Origin: Candidatus Rokuibacteriota bacterium
GTDB taxonomy: Bacteria > Methylomirabilota > Methylomirabilia > Rokubacteriales > CSP1-6
Assembly (NCBI GenBank): GCA_003220225.1
Contig: QHRU01000066.1
Coordinates: 1 to 54,745 of the forward strand
Direction of reading: 5' to 3'
DNA length: 54,745 bases
Positions 909-36,119 of this stretch are shown here, piece by piece. The position numbers were made by a program, and so were the translations under genes. The notes beneath the pieces were generated by a model. It was not told the DNA's origin and did no database searches. It saw only the letters and a list, made by a program, of their open reading frames with translations. The number at the start of each line of letters is the position of its first letter. The stretch's first letter is position 1.

Positions 909-1397
909 CTAGCCGCGCAGCTCCACGTTGCGGTTGCCGGCGCGCACCTTCGCGTCCCACGTGACCTCGATCGCGCCTTTCACGCTCTCGTGCGCCGGGC
1001 AGCCTTGCGGATGCGCCGCCAGCGCTCGCTCGGTCGCTTCGAGCGCGTCCGCCGGCACGGCGAGGTCGTAGTGGACGTGGATCGAGCGGATGCGGATGGT
1101 TTTGCCGTGGCCGACGATGCGGCCCTCGGCGGCGGCGGTGAAGGTGTCGCGGTCGAACGCGATCTTGCGCCCTGCCAGGGCGCCACGCAGAGTGCCGAAC
1201 ATTCAGCCGGCCACGCCGGCCACGATGTGGTCGAGCGTGGACGCGACGGGCGGGCCCTCGGGGGCGCCGTAGTACTGGCGCAGCGCGCCCTGCACGCCGT
1301 ACACGACGGGCTCGGGTACGTCGCCGAGGTACGCGTGGCGGGCGCCGTTCTTTTCGAGCAGGCGGGTCTTCGAGACGTATTCGAAATCGTCGGCCAT
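909..1397 (-). CDS. OsmC-like peroxide reductase, probable selenoprotein (in-frame TGA = Sec65)
   Basis: Reading through the TGA at 1205-1203 gives one 162-residue OsmC-family protein. The first half ends VASTLDHIVAGVAG and the second begins MFGTLRGALAGRKI in the same frame. OsmC/Ohr proteins carry their catalytic peroxidatic Cys at exactly this point (AxAGC), so TGA replaces Cys, as expected for selenocysteine. The second OsmC cysteine is present (C133 in HPQGCPAH). A 7-bp hairpin with loop GGC lies at 1183-1167, its loop G 27 nt after the TGA, inside the bacterial SECIS range. ATG 1397 follows GGAG; the gene starts 13 nt after the peroxiredoxin-like gene. It probably reduces organic hydroperoxides. 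No Sec-insertion genes are in the window. Confidence 0.85.
1167..1183 (-). promoter_or_regulatory. SECIS-like hairpin of the OsmC-like gene
   Basis: Stem GCGCCCT/AGGGCGC with loop GGC, located 20-36 nt after the in-frame TGA. Bacterial SECIS elements lie within the coding region just downstream of UGA, with a G at the start of a short apical loop; this hairpin satisfies both conditions. Confidence 0.65.
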
Positions 1398-1410: not shown

Positions 1411-2064
1411 TCACTCGCCGCGCAGCGCACGCAGCGCTGCCAGCGTGTCCTCGGGCTCGGGTCGGGTGGTGTAGTCGGGATCGCTCTCGGCGGAGTGGAT
1501 GACACCGCGGCGGTCGATCACGAAGCGGGCGGGCATCGGCAAGGTCCACGATGCGTCGCCGTTGTACGCGGCGAGGTCGAGCGGGAACGACCGGTACACC
1601 GCGCGCAGGTACTCGGGCAGCGTGAACGTCAGACCGAACTTCGTCGCGACCTCGTTGCCGCGATCGCTCAGGATCTCGAAACCGAGCGCGCGGCTTCGGA
1701 TCAGCTCACGGTTGTGCTCGGGCAGCTGCGGCGAGATCGCGACCAGGCTCGCGCCGAGCGCGGTGATCTCTGGCAGGACCTTCTGTAGAGCTACCAGCTC
1801 TACGTTGCAGTACGGTCACCAGCGGCCGCGGTAGAAGGTGACGACCAGCGGGCCGCGCGCGAGCAGGGTCTGGCTGTCCACGATCCGTTCGTTCCCGTCT
1901 GGCAGGGCGAAGCGGGGCGCCGGGTCGCCGGCCTTCAGCACCCGGCCCGGCGCGCCCGACGCGCGCAGCTCGTCCACCGCGCGGCGCATCGTGGCCACGG
2001 TCTCCGACGGGCGCTTGGCCTCCGCCCGCTCCCGCAGCGTCTTCAGCTCGTCTTTGAGCGCCAT
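1411..2064 (-). CDS. Peroxiredoxin-like AhpC/TSA protein, probable selenoprotein (Sec83, UPYC)
   Basis: A 217-residue thioredoxin-fold protein split by one in-frame TGA at 1818-1816. The sequence around it reads LVVTFYRGRW-TGA-PYCNVELVAL. The usual family motif is FYRGxWCPYC, so TGA replaces the peroxidatic Cys and C86 is the resolving partner. Codons after the TGA form a perfect 8-bp hairpin with loop GGT at 1803-1785; they use AT-ending codons (GTA, CTA) that are rare in neighbouring genes, as if the RNA structure were selected. ATG 2064 is preceded by AGGAGG. The protein should reduce peroxides using thiol reductants. It is probably co-transcribed with the OsmC-like gene 13 nt downstream. 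A nonsense mutation is unlikely because both halves are otherwise intact. Confidence 0.88.
1785..1803 (-). promoter_or_regulatory. SECIS-like hairpin of the peroxiredoxin-like gene
   Basis: Perfect stem GTAGAGCT/AGCTCTAC with loop GGT, 13-31 nt downstream of the in-frame TGA. The loop G sits 21 nt after the TGA. This is the clearest of the three SECIS candidates in the window. Confidence 0.75.
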
Positions 2065-7987: not shown

Positions 7988-8626
7988 TCACCTTCCCCAG
8001 CGGTATTCGCCGTCGGAGCCCGGGCGACCGCGGCCGCCGCCGCTGCCGCCGTCGAGGCCGCGCTTGGGCCCGCGCTTGCCGCCGCCGGGACCCTTGCGGC
8101 CGGCCGGTTTTTCGCCGAAGCCGCCGCCGCCCGCGCCGCGCCGCTGGCCCTGGCCGCGGCCCGGCTTCTCGCCGAACCCGCCGGCGCCGCCGCCCGGACG
8201 ATCGCCGCCGAAGCCGCCGCCAGGCCGGGAACCTCCGCCGCCCGCGCCGAATCGCGGGCCACCGCCGCCGCCACCGCCCGCGCCGAAGCGCGGGCCGCCG
8301 AAGCCGCCGCCGGCCGGCCGGTCGCCGTAGGGGCGGGGACCACCGCCGACCGGACGCGGGGGCCGCGGGCCGCCCGCGCCGCGCGGCGTGGCCTTGTCCA
8401 CGCGGATCATGCGCCCGTCGAGCGAGGTGCCGTTGAGCGAGGAGATGGCCTTCTCCGCCTCCTCGGTGGTCGCCATCTCGACGAAGCCGAAGCCCCGCGA
8501 GCGTCCCGTCTCTCGGTCGGTCATCACGGCGGCCGACATCACCTCGCCGAAGCGCGCGAAGGCGCCGCGCAGGCCCTCGCTCGAGGTGGAAAACGAGAGA
8601 CCACCGACGAACAGCTTCACGGACAT
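7988..8626 (-). CDS. Glycine-rich RRM RNA-binding protein
   Basis: A 212-aa protein with one RRM at residues 1-80: RNP2 is KLFVGGL and RNP1 is SRGFGFVEM. After it comes a long Gly/Arg/Pro tail with repeated FGGPRFGAGGGG-like units. Such small RRM proteins in bacteria are often cold-induced RNA chaperones. AAGGAGCAGGTC precedes the ATG. A paralogue with a shorter tail is at 35613-35981. The low-complexity tail exceeds that of typical bacterial RRM proteins (about 90-130 aa). Confidence 0.93.
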   Translation of the reverse strand: MSVKLFVGGLSFSTSSEGLRGAFARFGEVMSAAVMTDRETGRSRGFGFVEMATTEEAEKAISSLNGTSLDGRMIRVDKATPRGAGGPRPPRPVGGGPRPYGDRPAGGGFGGPRFGAGGGGGGGPRFGAGGGGSRPGGGFGGDRPGGGAGGFGEKPGRGQGQRRGAGGGGFGEKPAGRKGPGGGKRGPKRGLDGGSGGGRGRPGSDGEYRWGR

Positions 8627-8750
8627 GACCTGCTCCTTTCGTTTGCCGGGTCGATTACCCCGAGTATATATCCGCCCAGGAACGGCGACCTCGACGAGAT
8701 GGCGCGGCTCTTCGGCGCGGATCTCACGGAGTCGCTCAGTCGCTCGGGGC

Positions 8751-9125
8751 TCAGGAGGTGGGGGCGGGCAGCAGCAAACCGACCGCGGTCAGCGCGAGCG
8801 CGACGAGCACGGCCTGCGCAAAGATCTCACGCGCCTGCCGCTTGAGCTCGCCGGCGGCCCACGCATCGCTCACGGGCTCCGTTCCGGTCGCCGTCTCGCG
8901 CAGCCCGCGCGAGGCCAGGCCCGTTCACGTCCCGCCGCGGGCCTGGAAGAAGCCGAGGGCGGCGCCGAACACGGGCAGAAACAACACGAGGCGCGCGCCG
9001 CGCGGGGCGCCGAACAGGACGAAGCCGGCGGCGAGGAGCAGCGTGAGCGCGAGTCCCGCCGCGCCCATGAGGTAGCGCCGGCGCCGCCCGCGCGATCCGA
9101 GATTCGTGACCAGGGGGAGGGCCAT
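8751..9125 (-). CDS. Small membrane protein, probable selenoprotein (in-frame TGA = Sec67)
   Basis: Reading through a TGA at 8927-8925 gives one 124-residue protein: a basic N-terminus, a hydrophobic pair (about residues 20-60, ending PVFGAALGFFQARGGT), then TGA, then TGLASRGLRETATGTEPVSD and a last helix (AQAVLVALALTAVGLLLPAP). From memory, related uncharacterised membrane proteins carry a conserved Cys here (FQxRxxTCVxLAxxG). A hairpin with 7-bp stem CTCGCGC/GCGCGAG and loop GGGCT lies at 8913-8895, its first loop G 19 nt after TGA. The function is unknown; a membrane thiol or selenol redox role is plausible. The alternative is a nonsense-disrupted gene, less likely given the hairpin and two other Sec genes nearby. 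Confidence 0.68.
8895..8913 (-). promoter_or_regulatory. SECIS-like hairpin of the small membrane protein gene
   Basis: Perfect 7-bp stem with a 5-nt loop GGGCT, spanning 12-30 nt after the in-frame TGA. Spacing and loop G agree with bacterial SECIS elements, although GC-rich sequence makes chance hairpins more likely here. Confidence 0.55.
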
Positions 9126-9173
9126 CGCGGTCCGCGGGCTAAGGTATCATCGTTGCCAACCGGGGTCGCCGAA

Positions 9174-9182
9174 TGCTAGATT
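9174..9182 (+). promoter_or_regulatory. Extended -10 promoter (TGCTAGATT) of the coiled-coil gene
   Basis: TG followed after one base by TAGATT, about 50 nt upstream of ATG 9235. This gene has a leader with a ribosome site, in contrast to the leaderless genes. The box overlaps a small hairpin GCCGAA/TTCGGC at about 9169-9189. Confidence 0.4.
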
Positions 9183-14534: not shown

Positions 14535-15962
14535 CTAGGCGCCGACGGCGAGCCAGAGGGGGTCGCCGTCGCGCTGCACCAGCATCAGGACGGGCGCCCC
14601 CGCGGGGTGACGGCGGAGCGCCTGCTGCAGATCCTCGACGCTCGCGACCGCGCGGTGGTCGACCTCCGCGATGATGTCGCCGGCCTTGAGGCCGGCGGCC
14701 TCGGCGCGGCTGCCGTCGTTGACACCCACGACGAGCACGCCGCGCTGCTCGCGCAGACCGAGCTGCTGCGCCACCGTGGGTGTGAGCGTGCGGGCGGTGA
14801 CACCGAGGGCCGGCTCGCCGGGCGCCGGCTCCGCCTTCGCCTCGCGGGCCTCCTCCAACCGGCCGACGGTGGCGGTGAGCGTCAGAGGCTTGCCGTCGCG
14901 CACGACCTTGACCGGCACCGCGCGGCCGACCGGCGTCTCTGCGACCGCACGCGGCAGGTCACCCGCGCGACCCACCGGGCGGCCGTCGTACTCGACGATC
15001 ACATCGCCCTGCTTGAGGCCGGCCTTGGCGGCCGGAGAGCCCGCGTTCACGGACGTCACCAGCGCGCCGTCGGTCTGGGAGAGCCGGAAGCTCTTGGCGA
15101 GATCGGCGGTCAGCGGCTGGATGCCGACGCCGAGCCAGCCGCGTGTCACGTGGCCCGCGGAGGCCAGCTGGCTGACGACGGGCTTGGCGAGGTTGACCGG
15201 GATCGCGAACCCGATGCCGACCGAGCCGCCGCTGCGGCTCACGATCGCGGTGTTGATGCCGACCGCCTGGCCGCGCGCGTTGATCAGCGGGCCGCCGCTG
15301 TTGCCCGGGTTGATGGAGGCGTCGGTCTGGATGAAGTCGTCGTACGGGCCCTCGCCGATGACGCGCCCCGTCGCGCTCACGATGCCCGTCGTCACCGTCT
15401 GCTCGAGGCCGAACGGGTTGCCGATCGCCATCACCGGCTCGCCGACCTTGAGCGCGGCGGAGTCGCCGAGCGGGATCGTCGGCAGCCCGTGGGCGTCCAC
15501 CTTCAGGAGCGCCAGGTCCGTGCGCGGGTCACGCCCCACGACACGGCCGGCCAGCTCGCGCCCGTCCGCGAGCTTCACACGGATCTCGGTGGCGCCGTCC
15601 ACCACGTGGTTGTTGGTGACGACGTACCCGTCGGCGTTGATGACGAACCCGGAGCCGAGCCCGCGCTGCACGCGCGGCGGCACGCGGCCGAAGAACTGCT
15701 GGAAGAACGGATCGAGCGCCTCGGGCGTCGCTTGCGCCGCGCGCTTCATGCTGACGTTGACGACGGCCGGCTTGAGCGCCTGCGCCAGCGCCACCCAGTC
15801 GGGCGCGCTGACCGTGGTCGGCGCGACGGCGATCGGCTGGTCGCTCCAGAGCGGCGTCGTGGCCGCGCGGCCGTATCCGAAGGCCGCGCCGAGCGCGACC
15901 AGGACGAGGACAAGGCCGGCGGCCAGCGGCAGCCGGCGACGGAATCGGGAATCGAGCGTCAT
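14535..15962 (-). CDS. htrA: HtrA/DegP-type periplasmic serine protease with two PDZ domains
   Basis: A 475-aa envelope protease and chaperone. An N-terminal hydrophobic segment (residues 12-30) anchors or exports it. The trypsin-like triad is complete: His119 (TNNHVVDG), Asp149 (TDLALLKVD), Ser222 (NPGNSGGPL). Two PDZ domains follow: the first from about residue 285 (GWLGVGIQPLTADLAKSF) and the second from about 390 (ALGVTARTLTPTVAQQLGL). AGGAGG precedes the ATG at 15962; an upstream in-frame ATG at 16010 gives a charged extension without a better ribosome site. It heads an operon with a two-component system. Confidence 0.96.
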   Translation of the reverse strand: MTLDSRFRRRLPLAAGLVLVLVALGAAFGYGRAATTPLWSDQPIAVAPTTVSAPDWVALAQALKPAVVNVSMKRAAQATPEALDPFFQQFFGRVPPRVQRGLGSGFVINADGYVVTNNHVVDGATEIRVKLADGRELAGRVVGRDPRTDLALLKVDAHGLPTIPLGDSAALKVGEPVMAIGNPFGLEQTVTTGIVSATGRVIGEGPYDDFIQTDASINPGNSGGPLINARGQAVGINTAIVSRSGGSVGIGFAIPVNLAKPVVSQLASAGHVTRGWLGVGIQPLTADLAKSFRLSQTDGALVTSVNAGSPAAKAGLKQGDVIVEYDGRPVGRAGDLPRAVAETPVGRAVPVKVVRDGKPLTLTATVGRLEEAREAKAEPAPGEPALGVTARTLTPTVAQQLGLREQRGVLVVGVNDGSRAEAAGLKAGDIIAEVDHRAVASVEDLQQALRRHPAGAPVLMLVQRDGDPLWLAVGA

Positions 15963-16008
15963 GGCGTTCGCCTCCTGTTCGCGAGACCGGTATGGGCTCG
16001 CAGGGCCC

Positions 16009-16014
16009 ACGGTA
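16009..16014 (-). promoter_or_regulatory. Possible -10 box (TACCGT) of the htrA operon
   Basis: TACCGT on the minus strand lies about 17 nt downstream of where a -35 would fall inside the 11-bp repeats, and gives a leader of about 40 nt that contains AGGAGG before the htrA ATG. The match to consensus is weak, so it is supported mainly by its position. Confidence 0.3.
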
Positions 16015-16022
16015 GCGGCGCC

Positions 16023-16052
16023 GGATGAGACCGGAATGAAACGCGGATGAGA
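16023..16052 (-). promoter_or_regulatory. Three direct repeats with 11-bp period (OmpR-type operator)
   Basis: On the plus strand ATGA(G/A)A occurs at 16025, 16036 and 16047, exactly 11 bp apart, within units GGATGAGA, GAATGAAA and GGATGAGA. OmpR/PhoB-family regulators bind tandem half-sites with this one-turn spacing. The repeats lie about 60-90 bp upstream of htrA, over the probable -35 region, suitable for activation by the regulator encoded in the same operon. Confidence 0.6.
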
Positions 16053-16121
16053 ACTCTCTCATCGACGGCCGGAGGGGTCGACGGGGTCATGGGGCGGCCG
16101 CGCGCTATATAAAGGAGGCGC

Positions 16122-16127
16122 TATCAT
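16122..16127 (+). promoter_or_regulatory. Putative -10 box (TATCAT), leaderless DUF420 gene
   Basis: TATCAT is followed by 6 nt (GCGGGG) and the GTG start at 16134. Gene head with no ribosome-binding site in the gap. Confidence 0.5.
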
Positions 16128-16133
16128 GCGGGG

Positions 16134-16658
16134 GTGACACGCGACAGGGTGGCGCTCTCGATCATCGGCGGGCTGTCGCTCGTCATCGTTGGTCTCGTCG
16201 GCGTGTTGCTGCTGGGGCACCAGCCCGGCCTGGCGTGGAGCGCGGAGGTTTCCGGGCTGCCAGCGCTGAATGCCGCGCTCAACGCGACGTGCGCGGCGCT
16301 GCTCGTAAGCGGCTGGGTGGCCATACGCCGCCGCCGCATCGCCGTGCACCGCGCGTGTATGCTGGCGGCCTGCGCCGCCTCCGCGCTGTTCCTCGTCTCC
16401 TACGTCGTCTATCACGCGCTCGCCGGCTCGCGGCCCTTCGGCGGACAGGGCTGGATCCGAGCGGTCTATGTCCCGATCCTCGTCTCGCACGTCGTGCTGG
16501 CGGCCGCGATGGTGCCGTTCGTATTGACGACGGTCTATCGCGCGCTGTCGGGCCAGTTCGACCGGCACGTGCCGATCGCGCGACGCACGCTGCCGGTGTG
16601 GCTCTACGTGTCCGTGACGGGCGTGCTCGTCTACCTGCTGCTCTACCACCTCGGCTGA
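16134..16658 (+). CDS. DUF420 membrane protein
   Basis: A 174-aa protein with about five transmembrane helices. Conserved histidines sit in the helices (AVHRACMLAA, SYVVYHALAG, VSHVVLAAAMVP), the pattern of DUF420/YozB proteins. These are found near heme-copper oxidase assembly genes and are suspected to help cofactor insertion. Here no oxidase gene is adjacent. The GTG start lies 6 nt after a -10-like box. The downstream gene is convergent, separated by the double-hairpin element. Confidence 0.82.
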   Translation: MTRDRVALSIIGGLSLVIVGLVGVLLLGHQPGLAWSAEVSGLPALNAALNATCAALLVSGWVAIRRRRIAVHRACMLAACAASALFLVSYVVYHALAGSRPFGGQGWIRAVYVPILVSHVVLAAAMVPFVLTTVYRALSGQFDRHVPIARRTLPVWLYVSVTGVLVYLLLYHLG

Positions 16659-16680
16659 CGCGCCCCGACCGTGCGGGGGT

Positions 16681-16753
16681 CGAGGCGCGCCACGGCTTCG
16701 CCGGGGCGCGACGAGCGATGGGGGGTATGGGGGGCCATTTCGGGGCCCCCCAT
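16681..16753 (+). repeat. Double-hairpin convergent-gene element, copy 2
   Basis: M1: CGCGCC (16686-16691), A, CGGC, TTC, GCCG, G, GGCGCG (to 16710). M2: ATGGGGGGCC (16727-16736) pairing with GGCCCCCCAT (16744-16753). It lies between the stops of convergent DUF420 and PhzF genes, 4 nt before the latter stop, consistent with a two-way transcription terminator. Confidence 0.8.
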
Positions 16754-16757
16754 CTCC

Positions 16758-17546
16758 CTAGGCCAGCTCCCCGCGCAGCACCGTGACGGCCTGGCCGGCG
16801 AGCCTCACGCGCTCACCGGCCAGCGTCACGCGCACGACGCCGCCGCGCGCGGACACCTGGAGCCCCACGAGCTCGGAACGGCCGAGGCGCTCGGCCCAGA
16901 GGGGGCCGAGACAGCAGTGCGCCGAGCCCGTCACCGCGTCTTCCGGCAGGCCCACGCGCGGCGCGAAGAAGCGTGAGACGAAGTCGAACTCCGGCGAAGC
17001 GGCGCGCGCGGTGACGATCACGCCGCGCGTGTCGATCGCGGTCAGCGCCGGGAAGTCGGGCGACAGCGCGCGCAGCGCCGCCTCGTCGTCCACCTCGACG
17101 ACGTAATCCAGGCGGTTGCGACCGACCCAGCCCGGCTTCACGCCGAGCGCCTCCGCGAGCCCCGCGGGCGCGCGTGTCCGCGTCGCCGGCTCGGCCGGGA
17201 AGTCGAGGGAGATCCACCCGTCGCGCCTGGCGGCGGCGAGCGCGCCGGCCCCCGTGGTGAAGCGTGCCGTGGCGTCGGGGGCGAGCCGCCTCGTCTCCCA
17301 CAGCGCATGCGCGGCCGCGAGGGTGCCGTGACCGCAGAGCTGGAGCTCCGTCGACGGCGTGAACCACCGGAGCGCGAACTCGCTGTGCGCGCCCACGACG
17401 AACGCCGTCGCGGGCAGGTTCAGCTCCGCGGCGAGGCCCCGCATCCACGCGACCTCCCGCGCCGCCGGCAGCAGGCACACGGCCGCGGCGTTGCCGCGAA
17501 ACGGCTCGGCGGTGAAGGCGTCGACGTGGAGCAGCGGCACGGGCAC
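16758..17546 (-). CDS. PhzF-family isomerase-like protein, catalytic Glu apparently replaced
   Basis: A 262-aa protein with the PhzF fold: LLHVDAFTAEPFRGNAAAVC at residues 5-24, LRWFTPSTELQLCGHGTLAA and the second-half mirror (AVTGSAHCCLGPLW). In active PhzF the segment is LSETxF with catalytic Glu; here it reads NLPATAFV, so Ala stands at that place. Substrates of most homologues are unknown and this one may have another mechanism or be inactive. The GTG start lies 6 nt after TATCCT on the minus strand. It is divergent from the methyltransferase, only 17 bp away. Confidence 0.9.
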   Translation of the reverse strand: MPVPLLHVDAFTAEPFRGNAAAVCLLPAAREVAWMRGLAAELNLPATAFVVGAHSEFALRWFTPSTELQLCGHGTLAAAHALWETRRLAPDATARFTTGAGALAAARRDGWISLDFPAEPATRTRAPAGLAEALGVKPGWVGRNRLDYVVEVDDEAALRALSPDFPALTAIDTRGVIVTARAASPEFDFVSRFFAPRVGLPEDAVTGSAHCCLGPLWAERLGRSELVGLQVSARGGVVRVTLAGERVRLAGQAVTVLRGELA

Positions 17547-17551
17547 GGCGG

Positions 17552-17558
17552 TAGGATA
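17552..17558. promoter_or_regulatory. Overlapping divergent -10 boxes (TAGGAT / TATCCT)
   Basis: The 7-bp TAGGATA contains TAGGAT (plus, 6 nt before GTG 17564) and, read on the other strand, TATCCT (6 nt before GTG 17546). The entire intergenic space is 17 bp, so both genes should be leaderless and their promoters mutually exclusive. Confidence 0.6.
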
Positions 17559-17563
17559 CCGCC

Positions 17564-18148
17564 GTGCGCGGGCTCGAGCAGATTCCCTGGCTGTACGACG
17601 CGTGTTGCGCGCTCGTCGAGTGCTTCGGCCTCGGGCGCTGGCGCCGCTGGCTCGTCGAGGGCGCGGCGGGGCGCACGCTCGACGTCGGCTGCGGCACGGG
17701 CCGCAACCTGCCGCTCTACGCCGCGGGCGTGCGCGTGATCGGCCTCGATCCCGCGCGCGACGCGCTGCTGGCGGCGCGGCGCCGCGCGCCGGGCGTCCCG
17801 CTCGTGCAGGGCGACGCGCAGGCGCTGCCGTTTCGCGACGCCGCCTTCGATACCGTCGTCAGCGGGCTCGCCTTCTGCAGCGTGCCCGACCCCGCGCGCG
17901 GCCTCGCCGAGGTCAAGCGCGTGCTGCGGCCCGGCGGCGCGCTGCGGATGCTCGAGCACGTGCGCGCGACCGGTGGCCTCAAGGCGCGCGTGCAGGACCG
18001 CTGGCAGCCGCTGTGGACGCGCCTCAGCGGCGGCTGCCACTGGAACCGCGAGACCGAGCGCAGCGTCGAGGCCGCGGGCTTCCGCATCGAGGCCGGCACG
18101 CGCCGGGCCAAGGGCGACATGCGGCGGTTCGTCGCGCGGCCGGGCTGA
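17564..18148 (+). CDS. Class I SAM-dependent methyltransferase
   Basis: A 194-aa Rossmann-fold methyltransferase of the UbiE/Methyltransf_11 type. Motif I is LDVGCGTGRNLPLY (residues 39-52), the acidic end of strand 2 is VIGLDPA, and post-motif segments are QGDAQALPFRDAAFDTVVS and LRPGGALRMLEHVR. The methyl acceptor is unknown; similar stand-alone enzymes act on lipids or quinone-like molecules. The GTG start has a -10-like box 6 nt upstream. Confidence 0.92.
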   Translation: MRGLEQIPWLYDACCALVECFGLGRWRRWLVEGAAGRTLDVGCGTGRNLPLYAAGVRVIGLDPARDALLAARRRAPGVPLVQGDAQALPFRDAAFDTVVSGLAFCSVPDPARGLAEVKRVLRPGGALRMLEHVRATGGLKARVQDRWQPLWTRLSGGCHWNRETERSVEAAGFRIEAGTRRAKGDMRRFVARPG

Positions 18149-18172
18149 GAGGCCGGCGCTTCGACCGCCCGG

Positions 18173-18178
18173 TACAAT
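18173..18178 (+). promoter_or_regulatory. Putative -10 box (TACAAT)
   Basis: TACAAT followed by 6 nt and GTG 18185 of the DUF362 remnant. It probably now drives the LigD-like gene pair just downstream. Confidence 0.5.
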
Positions 18179-18184
18179 CGAGAC

Positions 18185-18421
18185 GTGGACGCGCTTTCCC
18201 GCCGGCGGCTGCTCCAGGGGGCCGTGGCCTCGGCCGCGATACGGGCCGCACCGCTCCGCGCCTGGCCCGCGCCCGAGGGCGGCCGCGTCGTCGTCGCGCG
18301 CGAGCCCAGCCGCGCGAAAGCGGTCGCGGCGTGCCTCGAGGCGCTCGAGTTCCGCGCGTGCGAGGGCCGCGACGTCGCGCTGAAGGCCAACTTCAACAGC
18401 GACGACGCGTCGGAGGGCTGA
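18185..18421 (+). pseudogene. N-terminal remnant of a DUF362-like protein
   Basis: A 78-codon ORF with a Tat-like start (SRRRLLQGAVASAA), then VVVAREPSRAKAVAACLEAL and DVALKANFNSDD. DUF362 proteins continue from the KxNFNSxD segment for another 200 or more residues; here the sequence breaks into ASEG and a stop. The intact promoter and start suggest a clean deletion of the rest. The next start codon, of the LigD phosphoesterase-like gene, is 3 nt away, so the remnant may now act as a translated leader. Confidence 0.65.
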
Positions 18422-19093: not shown

Positions 19094-20004
19094 GCGTTCC
19101 GACCGGCGTGAAGCCGATGCTGGCCACGCTGGTCGACGCGCCCTTCCACGCGCCGGGCTGGGTCTACGAGGAGAAGTACGACGGCATCCGCATCCTCGCC
19201 GCCAAGGACGGCTCGCGCGTGCGTCTGATCACCCGCAACCTGATCGATCGCAGCGCCGACGTTCCCGAGATCGCCGCGGCGATCGCCAAGCTGCCGGCGC
19301 CCACGCTGCTGCTCGACGGCGAGGTGGTCGTCTTCGATCCCGAGGGCATCTCGCGCTTTCAGCTCTTCGGCGCCGACACGCGGCGGAAGCCCGTCTACGT
19401 CGTCTTCGACTGCCTCTACGCGCGCGGCCGCGATCTACGCGGGCGCCCGCTCGCCGAGCGCCGCGCGGTGCTCGAGAAGGAAGTGCGCCCCGGCGGCCCG
19501 CTGCGCCTCGCGCGGCGGCTCGGGAGCGATGGCTTCAAGGCGTTCGAGGCGGCGCGCGAGCGCGGGCTCGAGGGCATCGTGGCCAAGGACGAAGCGTCGA
19601 CGTACGAGACCGGCAAGCGCTCCCCGGCGTGGCGCAAGGTGAAGGTCCGCGCGGAGGAGGAGTTCGTGATCGGCGGCTACACGGCGCCCGAGGGCGCGCG
19701 CACGCACTTCGGCGCGCTGCTGATCGGCGCCTTCGACGACGGCACGCTGCGCTACGCGGGCAAGGTGGGCACCGGCTTCACGAGCAAGACGCTGGCCGAT
19801 CTCGCGCAGCGCTTTGCGCCGCTTCGTCGCGCGACCTCGCCGTTCGCCGACGCGCCGCGCATGCGTGACGCGACCTGGCTCGAGCCGAGGCTCGTCGCCC
19901 AGATCGGATTCATGGAGAAGACGGGCGACGGCAAGCTCCGCCATCCCACCTTTCTCGGCCTGCGCGACGACAAGTCGCCCGCCGAGGTGCGCTGGACCGT
20001 GTAG
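19090..20004 (+). CDS. ATP-dependent DNA ligase, LigD ligase-domain type
   Basis: A 304-aa ligase: nucleotidyltransferase domain with KPMLATLVDAPFHAPGWVYE and the adenylated Lys29 in EEKYDGIR, motif III FDCLYARGRDL, motif IV LEGIVAKDEAS, motif V WRKVKVR, then an OB-fold (EFVIGGYTAPEGAR to RHPTFLGLRDDK). It should seal double-strand breaks with the PE protein. GTG 19090 overlaps the PE stop. A second ATP-dependent ligase of a different class is at 47898-49475. Confidence 0.95.
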   Translation: MSVPTGVKPMLATLVDAPFHAPGWVYEEKYDGIRILAAKDGSRVRLITRNLIDRSADVPEIAAAIAKLPAPTLLLDGEVVVFDPEGISRFQLFGADTRRKPVYVVFDCLYARGRDLRGRPLAERRAVLEKEVRPGGPLRLARRLGSDGFKAFEAARERGLEGIVAKDEASTYETGKRSPAWRKVKVRAEEEFVIGGYTAPEGARTHFGALLIGAFDDGTLRYAGKVGTGFTSKTLADLAQRFAPLRRATSPFADAPRMRDATWLEPRLVAQIGFMEKTGDGKLRHPTFLGLRDDKSPAEVRWTV

Positions 20005-20016
20005 GAGCTGTCGGCG

Positions 20017-20121
20017 TATCGAGGGACGCCACGGCTTCGCCGGGTGTCGAGGCGCGCCACGGCTTCGCCGGGGCGCGACGAGCGTTTGGGGGGTATGGGG
20101 GGCCATTTCGGGGCCCCCCAT
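20017..20121 (+). repeat. Double-hairpin convergent-gene element, copy 3 with duplicated M1
   Basis: Two tandem M1 hairpins (about 20025-20047 and 20055-20079), each with CCACGGCTTCGCCGG at its core, then M2 (ATGGGGGGCC at 20095-20104 pairing with 20112-20121). It lies between the convergent ligase and HAD-ATPase genes and touches the latter stop codon. The tandem M1 shows that the hairpin module can duplicate. Confidence 0.8.
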
Positions 20122-35612: not shown

Positions 35613-35981
35613 CTACCAGCGGCCGCCGCCGCCGCGGCTGCCACCGCCGCCACCACCACCGTACCCGCCACCCGGACGGCCGCCGCCGCCCCGGCCACCG
35701 AAGCCGCCGCGGCCACCGCCGCCACCGCCCGCGCCGGGGCTCTTGGCCTTCTCGACCTGGATCGTGCGGCCATCCAGGCTCGTGCCGTTGAGCTTGCTGA
35801 TCGCCTGCTCGGCTTCCTCGTTCGTCGTCATCTCGACGAAGCCGAAGCCGCGGGAGCGGCCCGTGTCGCGGTCCGTGACGACGCTCGCGGACTCCACGTT
35901 GCCGCACGCGGCGAACGCTTCCCGCAGCCGGTCCGTGGATGTGGAGAACGAGAGGCCTCCGACGAAGAGTTTCACAGCCAT
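35613..35981 (-). CDS. Glycine-rich RRM RNA-binding protein (second copy)
   Basis: A 122-aa protein with one RRM (KLFVGGL as RNP2, SRGFGFVEM as RNP1) and a Gly/Arg tail of about 40 residues ending GGGGRW. The RRM is nearly the same as that of the paralogue at 7988-8626, but the tail is far shorter. AGGAGCG precedes ATG 35981. The role is likely RNA chaperone or cold response. Confidence 0.93.
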   Translation of the reverse strand: MAVKLFVGGLSFSTSTDRLREAFAACGNVESASVVTDRDTGRSRGFGFVEMTTNEEAEQAISKLNGTSLDGRTIQVEKAKSPGAGGGGGGRGGFGGRGGGGRPGGGYGGGGGGGSRGGGGRW

Positions 35982-36119
35982 GGGGCGCGCTCCTATGTGG
36001 CCTTCCGAACTGTGCACGCGATCCCTGGACTCGGAAGAGAACCGGGACGCGGCCTGAGCCCGCGGGCGGGGGTTCACGGCGAACCGGCGACCGCACCAGA
36101 CGGGTAAAGTATACATGCC

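Follow-up and report, generated by a model that had tools for sequence, protein, structure and literature searches.

The window analysed here, a stretch of 54,745 nucleotides from Candidatus Rokuibacteriota bacterium, carries on its minus strand a gene for a small membrane protein whose in-frame UGA at codon 67 is, to judge from sequence comparison, very probably decoded as selenocysteine (Sec). Strong comparative evidence supports its assignment to a new family of three-helix membrane selenoproteins, the novelty of which was checked against the available family libraries and a recent inventory. Sec had been proposed as the best explanation of this codon in the initial annotation, and it is still the reading that best accounts for the data: the aligned column contains Sec or Cys, TGA recurs there in many phyla, and the Sec machinery is present in the genome.

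The Gene and Its Product

Read from 9125 to 8751 on the minus strand, the gene comprises 66 codons, a TGA at 8925-8927, another 57 codons, and a terminal TGA at 8751-8753. With TGA given as U, the translation is MALPL...QARGGT-U-TGLASRGLRET...LLLPAPTS, in which codon 67 is the sole internal TGA. Ordinary gene calling (translation table 11) reports only a 66-aa ORF (8925-9125) or overlapping plus-strand ORFs.

8754-9125, minus strand: putative membrane selenoprotein CDS, 124 residues with Sec at 67 (from the translation and 79 aligned family members)
8925-8927, minus strand: putative Sec codon (TGA) for residue 67, within the motif QA-x3-T-U-x2-LA-x-RG (65 TGA and 14 TGY at this column)

Residues conserved in the family alignment include N8, R17, G21, Q61, A62, T66, U67, L70, A71, R73, G74, and G81. 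Conservation beyond the TGA, at first noted only from the look of the sequence, is borne out by the relatives found in the first search: in all of them (24 of 24) the column is occupied by an in-frame TGA, and homology carries on across it.

Predicted Structure and Membrane Topology

A structural model was generated with AlphaFold2 (md0e6add0c5de) from 25 sequences, with Sec modelled as Cys. The model has a pLDDT of 95.4 and a pTM of 0.83 and consists of helices at residues 11-37, 42-64, 68-72, and 88-118 and a small two-strand hairpin at 75-84. The three long helices agree with the earlier description of a small three-helix membrane protein interrupted once by TGA after the second helix.

9015-9095, minus strand: predicted transmembrane helix 1, residues 11-37, which follows an Arg-rich and probably cytoplasmic N-terminus (AlphaFold2)
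8934-9002, minus strand: predicted transmembrane helix 2, residues 42-64, with Sec three residues past its end (AlphaFold2)
8874-8924, minus strand: predicted short helix 68-72, starting straight after Sec, and two-strand hairpin 75-84, with the conserved LAxRG (AlphaFold2 and conservation)
8772-8864, minus strand: predicted helix 3, residues 88-118, whose first half is basic (family sequence LRRQARxVH) and which then forms the last membrane span (AlphaFold2 and conservation)

The Arg-rich N-terminus and the basic stretch after transmembrane helix 2 suggest, by the positive-inside rule, that the N-terminus and Sec67 face the cytoplasm. A Foldseek search against the PDB and viral models returned no match at E <= 0.001.

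Distribution of Sec and Cys Forms

A search with the query protein, in which a stop was allowed, was positive in 24 of 60 genomes, among them the host's own; in every case TGA occupies the same column, and the sequence to either side of it is strongly conserved. The profile built from these 24 relatives matched in 28 of 95 genomes of the host phylum and strongly in three cases outside it; all of these members have TGA. In addition, the named genome collection was searched with a degenerate nucleotide pattern for the Sec codon and its flanks, which accepted TGA, TGC, or TGT; 27 loci were detected, of which 24 are family members and three (L053, L060, and L067) are unrelated and were discarded. 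Further profile searches yielded 24 true matches (21 Sec and 3 Cys) in 298 genomes of the phylum of G155, which is assigned to Gemmatimonadota because of its proximity to L070 on the tree, and also added members from Acidobacteriota and from two more phyla, those of G191 and G103.

In total, 79 members were aligned, 65 with TGA (Sec) and 14 with TGY (Cys) at the column, where neither any other residue nor TAA or TAG occurs in these 79 sequences. The conserved Cys that the initial annotation had expected at this position is thus present in 14 homologues, and the additional TGA-containing homologues it had called for were found in many phyla. No homologue was found whose gene ends at the TGA; those measured run on for 53-62 more codons to a common C-terminus.

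The family is spread over at least seven bacterial phyla. Sec forms occur in Rokubacteria (the host lineage), Gemmatimonadota, Acidobacteriota (including Pyrinomonadaceae), Polyangiaceae (Myxococcota), Planctomycetota, and a deltaproteobacterium. Cys forms (L051, L052, L054, L061, L062, L063, L072, L074, L105, L116, L126, L133, L134, and L136) occur in Latescibacterota, Handelsmanbacteria, Pyrinomonadaceae, another acidobacterium, a planctomycete, an alphaproteobacterium, and Nannocystaceae; Latescibacterota and the alphaproteobacterium have only this form. Eight switches between Sec and Cys are placed on the tree, which is short and has many open forks, and at least four of them are forced by well-supported branches. 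Both types were even observed within a single genus (Sec in G411 and G539, Cys in G694), which offers a clean natural system for examining what selenium adds.

Within a genus, dN/dS past the TGA is 0.33-0.57, only moderately below 1 and based on few codons. Synonymous-site tests over the same region gave weak signals, perhaps because the hairpin described below constrains those sites. Viral contigs scanned with the consensus protein contained no relative, and plasmid records contained none for the alphaproteobacterial Cys form. One further family member, L144 (G1108), contains three TGAs in frame (with RWU instead of the expected RWW, and AAU instead of AAR), for which gene decay, errors in the sequence, or additional recoding may be responsible; it was left out of the 65 Sec forms.

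The SECIS-like Hairpin

A bacterial SECIS-like hairpin follows the Sec codon. The 7-bp stem and the loop starting with GGG were correctly described in the initial annotation; the stem begins 11 nt after the TGA rather than the 12 nt given there, and the loop begins 18 nt after it.

8895-8913, minus strand: bacterial SECIS-like hairpin, CTCGCGC-GGGCT-GCGCGAG, 7-bp stem, loop GGGCT at 8902-8906, -11.9 kcal/mol

The bSECIS model (PMC13188914) specifies an apical loop of 3-9 nt, a stem of 4-16 bp, a G in loop positions 1-2, a spacing of 16-37 nt, and an MFE <= -7.5. The hairpin lies within these limits, with a loop of 5 nt starting with GG, a stem of 7 bp, a spacing of 18 nt, and -11.9 kcal/mol.

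Numbering the T of TGA as 1, the pairs 21-27, 20-28, 19-29, and 18-30 are formed in 55, 52, 58, and 56 of 58 Sec sequences, respectively, and the same stem positions pair in only 0-11 of the 58 when the register is slid by one base. The hairpin is kept where the amino acids differ, as TCCCGC/GCGGGA in Polyangiaceae, TCTCGC/GCGAGA in a gemmatimonad, and GCGT/ACGC in G191, and members in which Arg73 is replaced by Leu or Gln have the stem in a shifted register. A covariation count over 35 sequences found 93.7% of cells paired and three pairs with both partners changed; of 500 shuffles of this set, none reached the covariation score and one reached the count of double-changed cells. All of these hairpin statistics rest on related, non-independent sequences.

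The Sec and Cys forms also differ in this region. A stem of at least 5 bp with a GG loop was detected in all 58 Sec forms compared with 5 of 11 Cys forms. The codon for Gly74, which supplies the loop, is GGC in 10 of 57 Sec forms versus 8 of 10 Cys forms (Fisher p 2e-4), the proportion of GGC elsewhere in the family being 55%. When MFE was compared with synonymous shuffles, it was low in the Cys forms too, and this measure alone is therefore not Sec-specific. By a rough count, approximately 1 in 8 TGAs in such GC-rich DNA also passes the SECIS model by chance, so that the hairpin alone would not be decisive; given such chance hairpins and the kinship of the sequences, its conservation weighs more than the fold itself. 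No Rfam family matched the hairpin region.

Sec Machinery and Nearby Selenoprotein Genes

The host genome has the complete set of selA, selB, selC (tRNA-Sec), and selD. Three of these genes are grouped together on contig C5, namely selB (15074-16951, 372 bits), selA (17007-18359, 585 bits), and tRNA-Sec (19682-19775, 69.7 bits). The selD gene (L146; C159:12780-13730) contains one in-frame TGA, and SelD is therefore probably a selenoprotein itself in this host. Among the genomes with Sec forms that were checked, tRNA-Sec scored above the cut-off in all and SelB in all except G155 (L045/L048), which has a strong tRNA-Sec (77.8 bits); either an assembly gap or a divergent SelB may explain the missing match. 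Neither SelB nor tRNA-Sec was above the cut-offs in the genome of the alphaproteobacterium with a Cys form (L072).

The two other selenoprotein genes that had been reported within 8 kb were also confirmed as an OsmC-like and an AhpC/TSA-like gene, about 7-8 kb from the membrane protein gene.

1816-1818, minus strand: putative Sec codon TGA of an AhpC/TSA-like selenoprotein; PF00578 (8e-25) extends through the TGA; motif RWUPYC; hairpin with a GGT loop 20 nt after the TGA
1203-1205, minus strand: putative Sec codon TGA of an OsmC-like selenoprotein; PF02566 above cut-off, NF041052 (OsmC_like_Se) 4e-4; hairpin with a GGC loop 26 nt after the TGA

Both hairpins likewise fall within the limits of the bSECIS model. 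These two genes share the genome, the Sec machinery, and similar GG-loop hairpins (18-26 nt after the TGA across the three genes) with the membrane selenoprotein gene; on the other hand, their products are soluble, belong to known families, and are unrelated to it in sequence.

Other Readings of the UGA Codon

If the TGA were a true stop, the product would be the 66-residue, two-helix protein of the table 11 call, and the downstream sequence would be either a remnant or a short gene of its own. This is extremely unlikely, given that the Cys homologues are encoded by one uninterrupted ORF of ~120 aa, that the TGA forms retain helix 3 and stop at nearly the same point, and that the column is free of TAA and TAG while protein-level conservation extends past the TGA. 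It is also very improbable that the codon is recoded without selenium, whether by near-cognate Trp or Arg or by Cys charged on tRNA-Sec. The comparative data by themselves do not separate Sec from Cys inserted at UGA; however, the Sec pathway is complete, SelD included, the SECIS-like element is weakened in the Cys forms, neither Trp nor Arg appears at the column in any homologue, and the gene uses TGA as its own terminal stop. A third reading takes the plus-strand ORF 8388-9179, which spans the region with 263 aa, as the real gene and the minus-strand reading as an artefact of GC-rich DNA. The probability of this is negligible, and the ORF was rejected: even the best antisense frame runs uninterrupted through the gene in no more than 45 of 79 members, the sense frame has no stop in any of them apart from the Sec TGA, and conservation tracks the minus-strand protein, also in the AT-richer genome G191 (44% GC). 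Insertion of Sec at codon 67 thus remains the preferred reading.

Possible Function

UGA codon 67 would be read as Sec by SelB and tRNA-Sec under the direction of hairpin 8895-8913, placing Sec67 at the interface of the inner membrane, probably on the cytoplasmic side, where the short helix after transmembrane helix 2 starts. Such a single interfacial selenol could act at the membrane surface on membrane-borne oxidants, reducing lipid or quinone peroxides for example, and would then be regenerated by an external thiol or protein reductant. No cysteine whatever is present in 40 of the 65 Sec forms, so that the family does not generally rely on an internal selenenylsulfide. This absence of Cys, together with the restriction of the column to Se or S, favors a single-selenol enzyme with an external reductant. 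On the basis of the residue pattern and topology, a membrane-interface reductase or peroxidase of this type is tentatively the favored function.

A Cys just before the N-I/L-G motif at the N-terminus (for example, C-I-P/A-N-I-G) is found in 20 of the 79 members from several phyla, such as L056, L059, L072, and L114, and might pair with Sec67 in members that have both. It was rejected as a general resolving partner, as it is limited to these 20 members and absent from the window protein. Neither comparing all ORFs against each other nor scanning 76 neighbour proteins for Pfam domains revealed recurrent neighbour genes, any one domain being found in at most 5 of 76.

The main rival is a selenoprotein that binds or passes on a metal, selenium, or an S/Se compound, or that senses oxidants, instead of catalyzing a reduction. 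A role of this kind would suit a protein with one chalcogen, no general resolving Cys, and no conserved redox neighbour gene, and the membrane selenoproteins of the inventory do include transporters (MerT-like, YeeE/YedE, and the SO_0444 family of Cu/Zn efflux proteins). However, three helices and one Sec come with no further conserved metal ligand, the conserved residues being Q, T, L, A, R, G, and N, and selenoproteins are thought to be mostly redox enzymes (PMC13188914). Binding or sensing is considered somewhat unlikely, though only slightly less probable than the reductase/peroxidase role, which is retained as the working proposal.

Relation to Known Selenoprotein Families

The initial annotation gave no named selenoprotein family of this type, and none was found in Pfam, NCBIfam, or the inventory. 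Pfam-A and NCBIfam 20.0, including its selenoprotein models, gave no match near the cut-off for the Sec form or for four Cys forms. The inventory of 2026, which covers 119 families and subfamilies of prokaryotic selenoproteins (PMC13188914, Table 1) and was compared by name, motif, and domain only, has no entry for a three-helix membrane protein with TU-x2-LAxRG. This inventory takes in the deep-Sep and Haft families, and the Haft and Tolstoy 2025 families are listed there mostly with NCBIfam models (PMC13188914). The deep-Sep text mentions neither membrane proteins nor Methylomirabilota. The deep-Sep and Haft and Tolstoy families (hypothetical proteins DG, DW, and DF; TsoA/B/C/X/Y) resemble the new family in being uncharacterised bacterial selenoproteins found by Sec/Cys pairing, but those modelled in NCBIfam release 20.0 do not match it.

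The membrane selenoproteins of the inventory include the MerT-like putative mercuric transport protein (PF02411), YeeE/YedE (PF04143), the SO_0444 Cu/Zn efflux family (NF033936), and the SaoP permease (NF040733) (PMC13188914). The new family has in common with them the membrane location, a single UGA-encoded Sec, and Cys homologues. It differs in lacking a sequence match in Pfam or NCBIfam, in its T-U-x2-LAxRG motif without CxxU/UxxC, and in a three-helix model without a fold match in the PDB.

Deng et al. 2026 (Cell Rep 45:116760) reportedly describe candidate novel selenoproteins from groundwater MAGs, with one Methylomirabilota MAG having 63 selenoprotein genes. It is possible that the membrane family was listed earlier, without a name, by Deng et al. 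2026 or Haft and Tolstoy 2025.

The approximately 119 catalogued prokaryotic families and subfamilies are mostly thioredoxin-like redox proteins; the new one is integral to the membrane and without a known relative or fold. It seems rather probable that it represents a widespread, previously undescribed integral-membrane selenoprotein family that has a new fold and acts through a single interfacial selenol without a partner cysteine; this would make it a new kind of membrane selenoenzyme. As most of its members are Sec forms, truncated at the TGA by ordinary gene calling, its recognition should also improve the annotation of Rokubacteria and Gemmatimonadota genomes.

Other Features of the Window

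A dispersed repeat of ~78 nt is present at 16674-16751 and 20041-20118 (83% identical), and the translated ORFs suggest a further copy near 800-900. In addition, 8370-8627 and 35725-35982 are 74% alike at the DNA level. The former encodes the RRM domain of an RNA-binding protein whose gene lies just downstream of the membrane selenoprotein gene, and the latter is therefore probably a paralogue.
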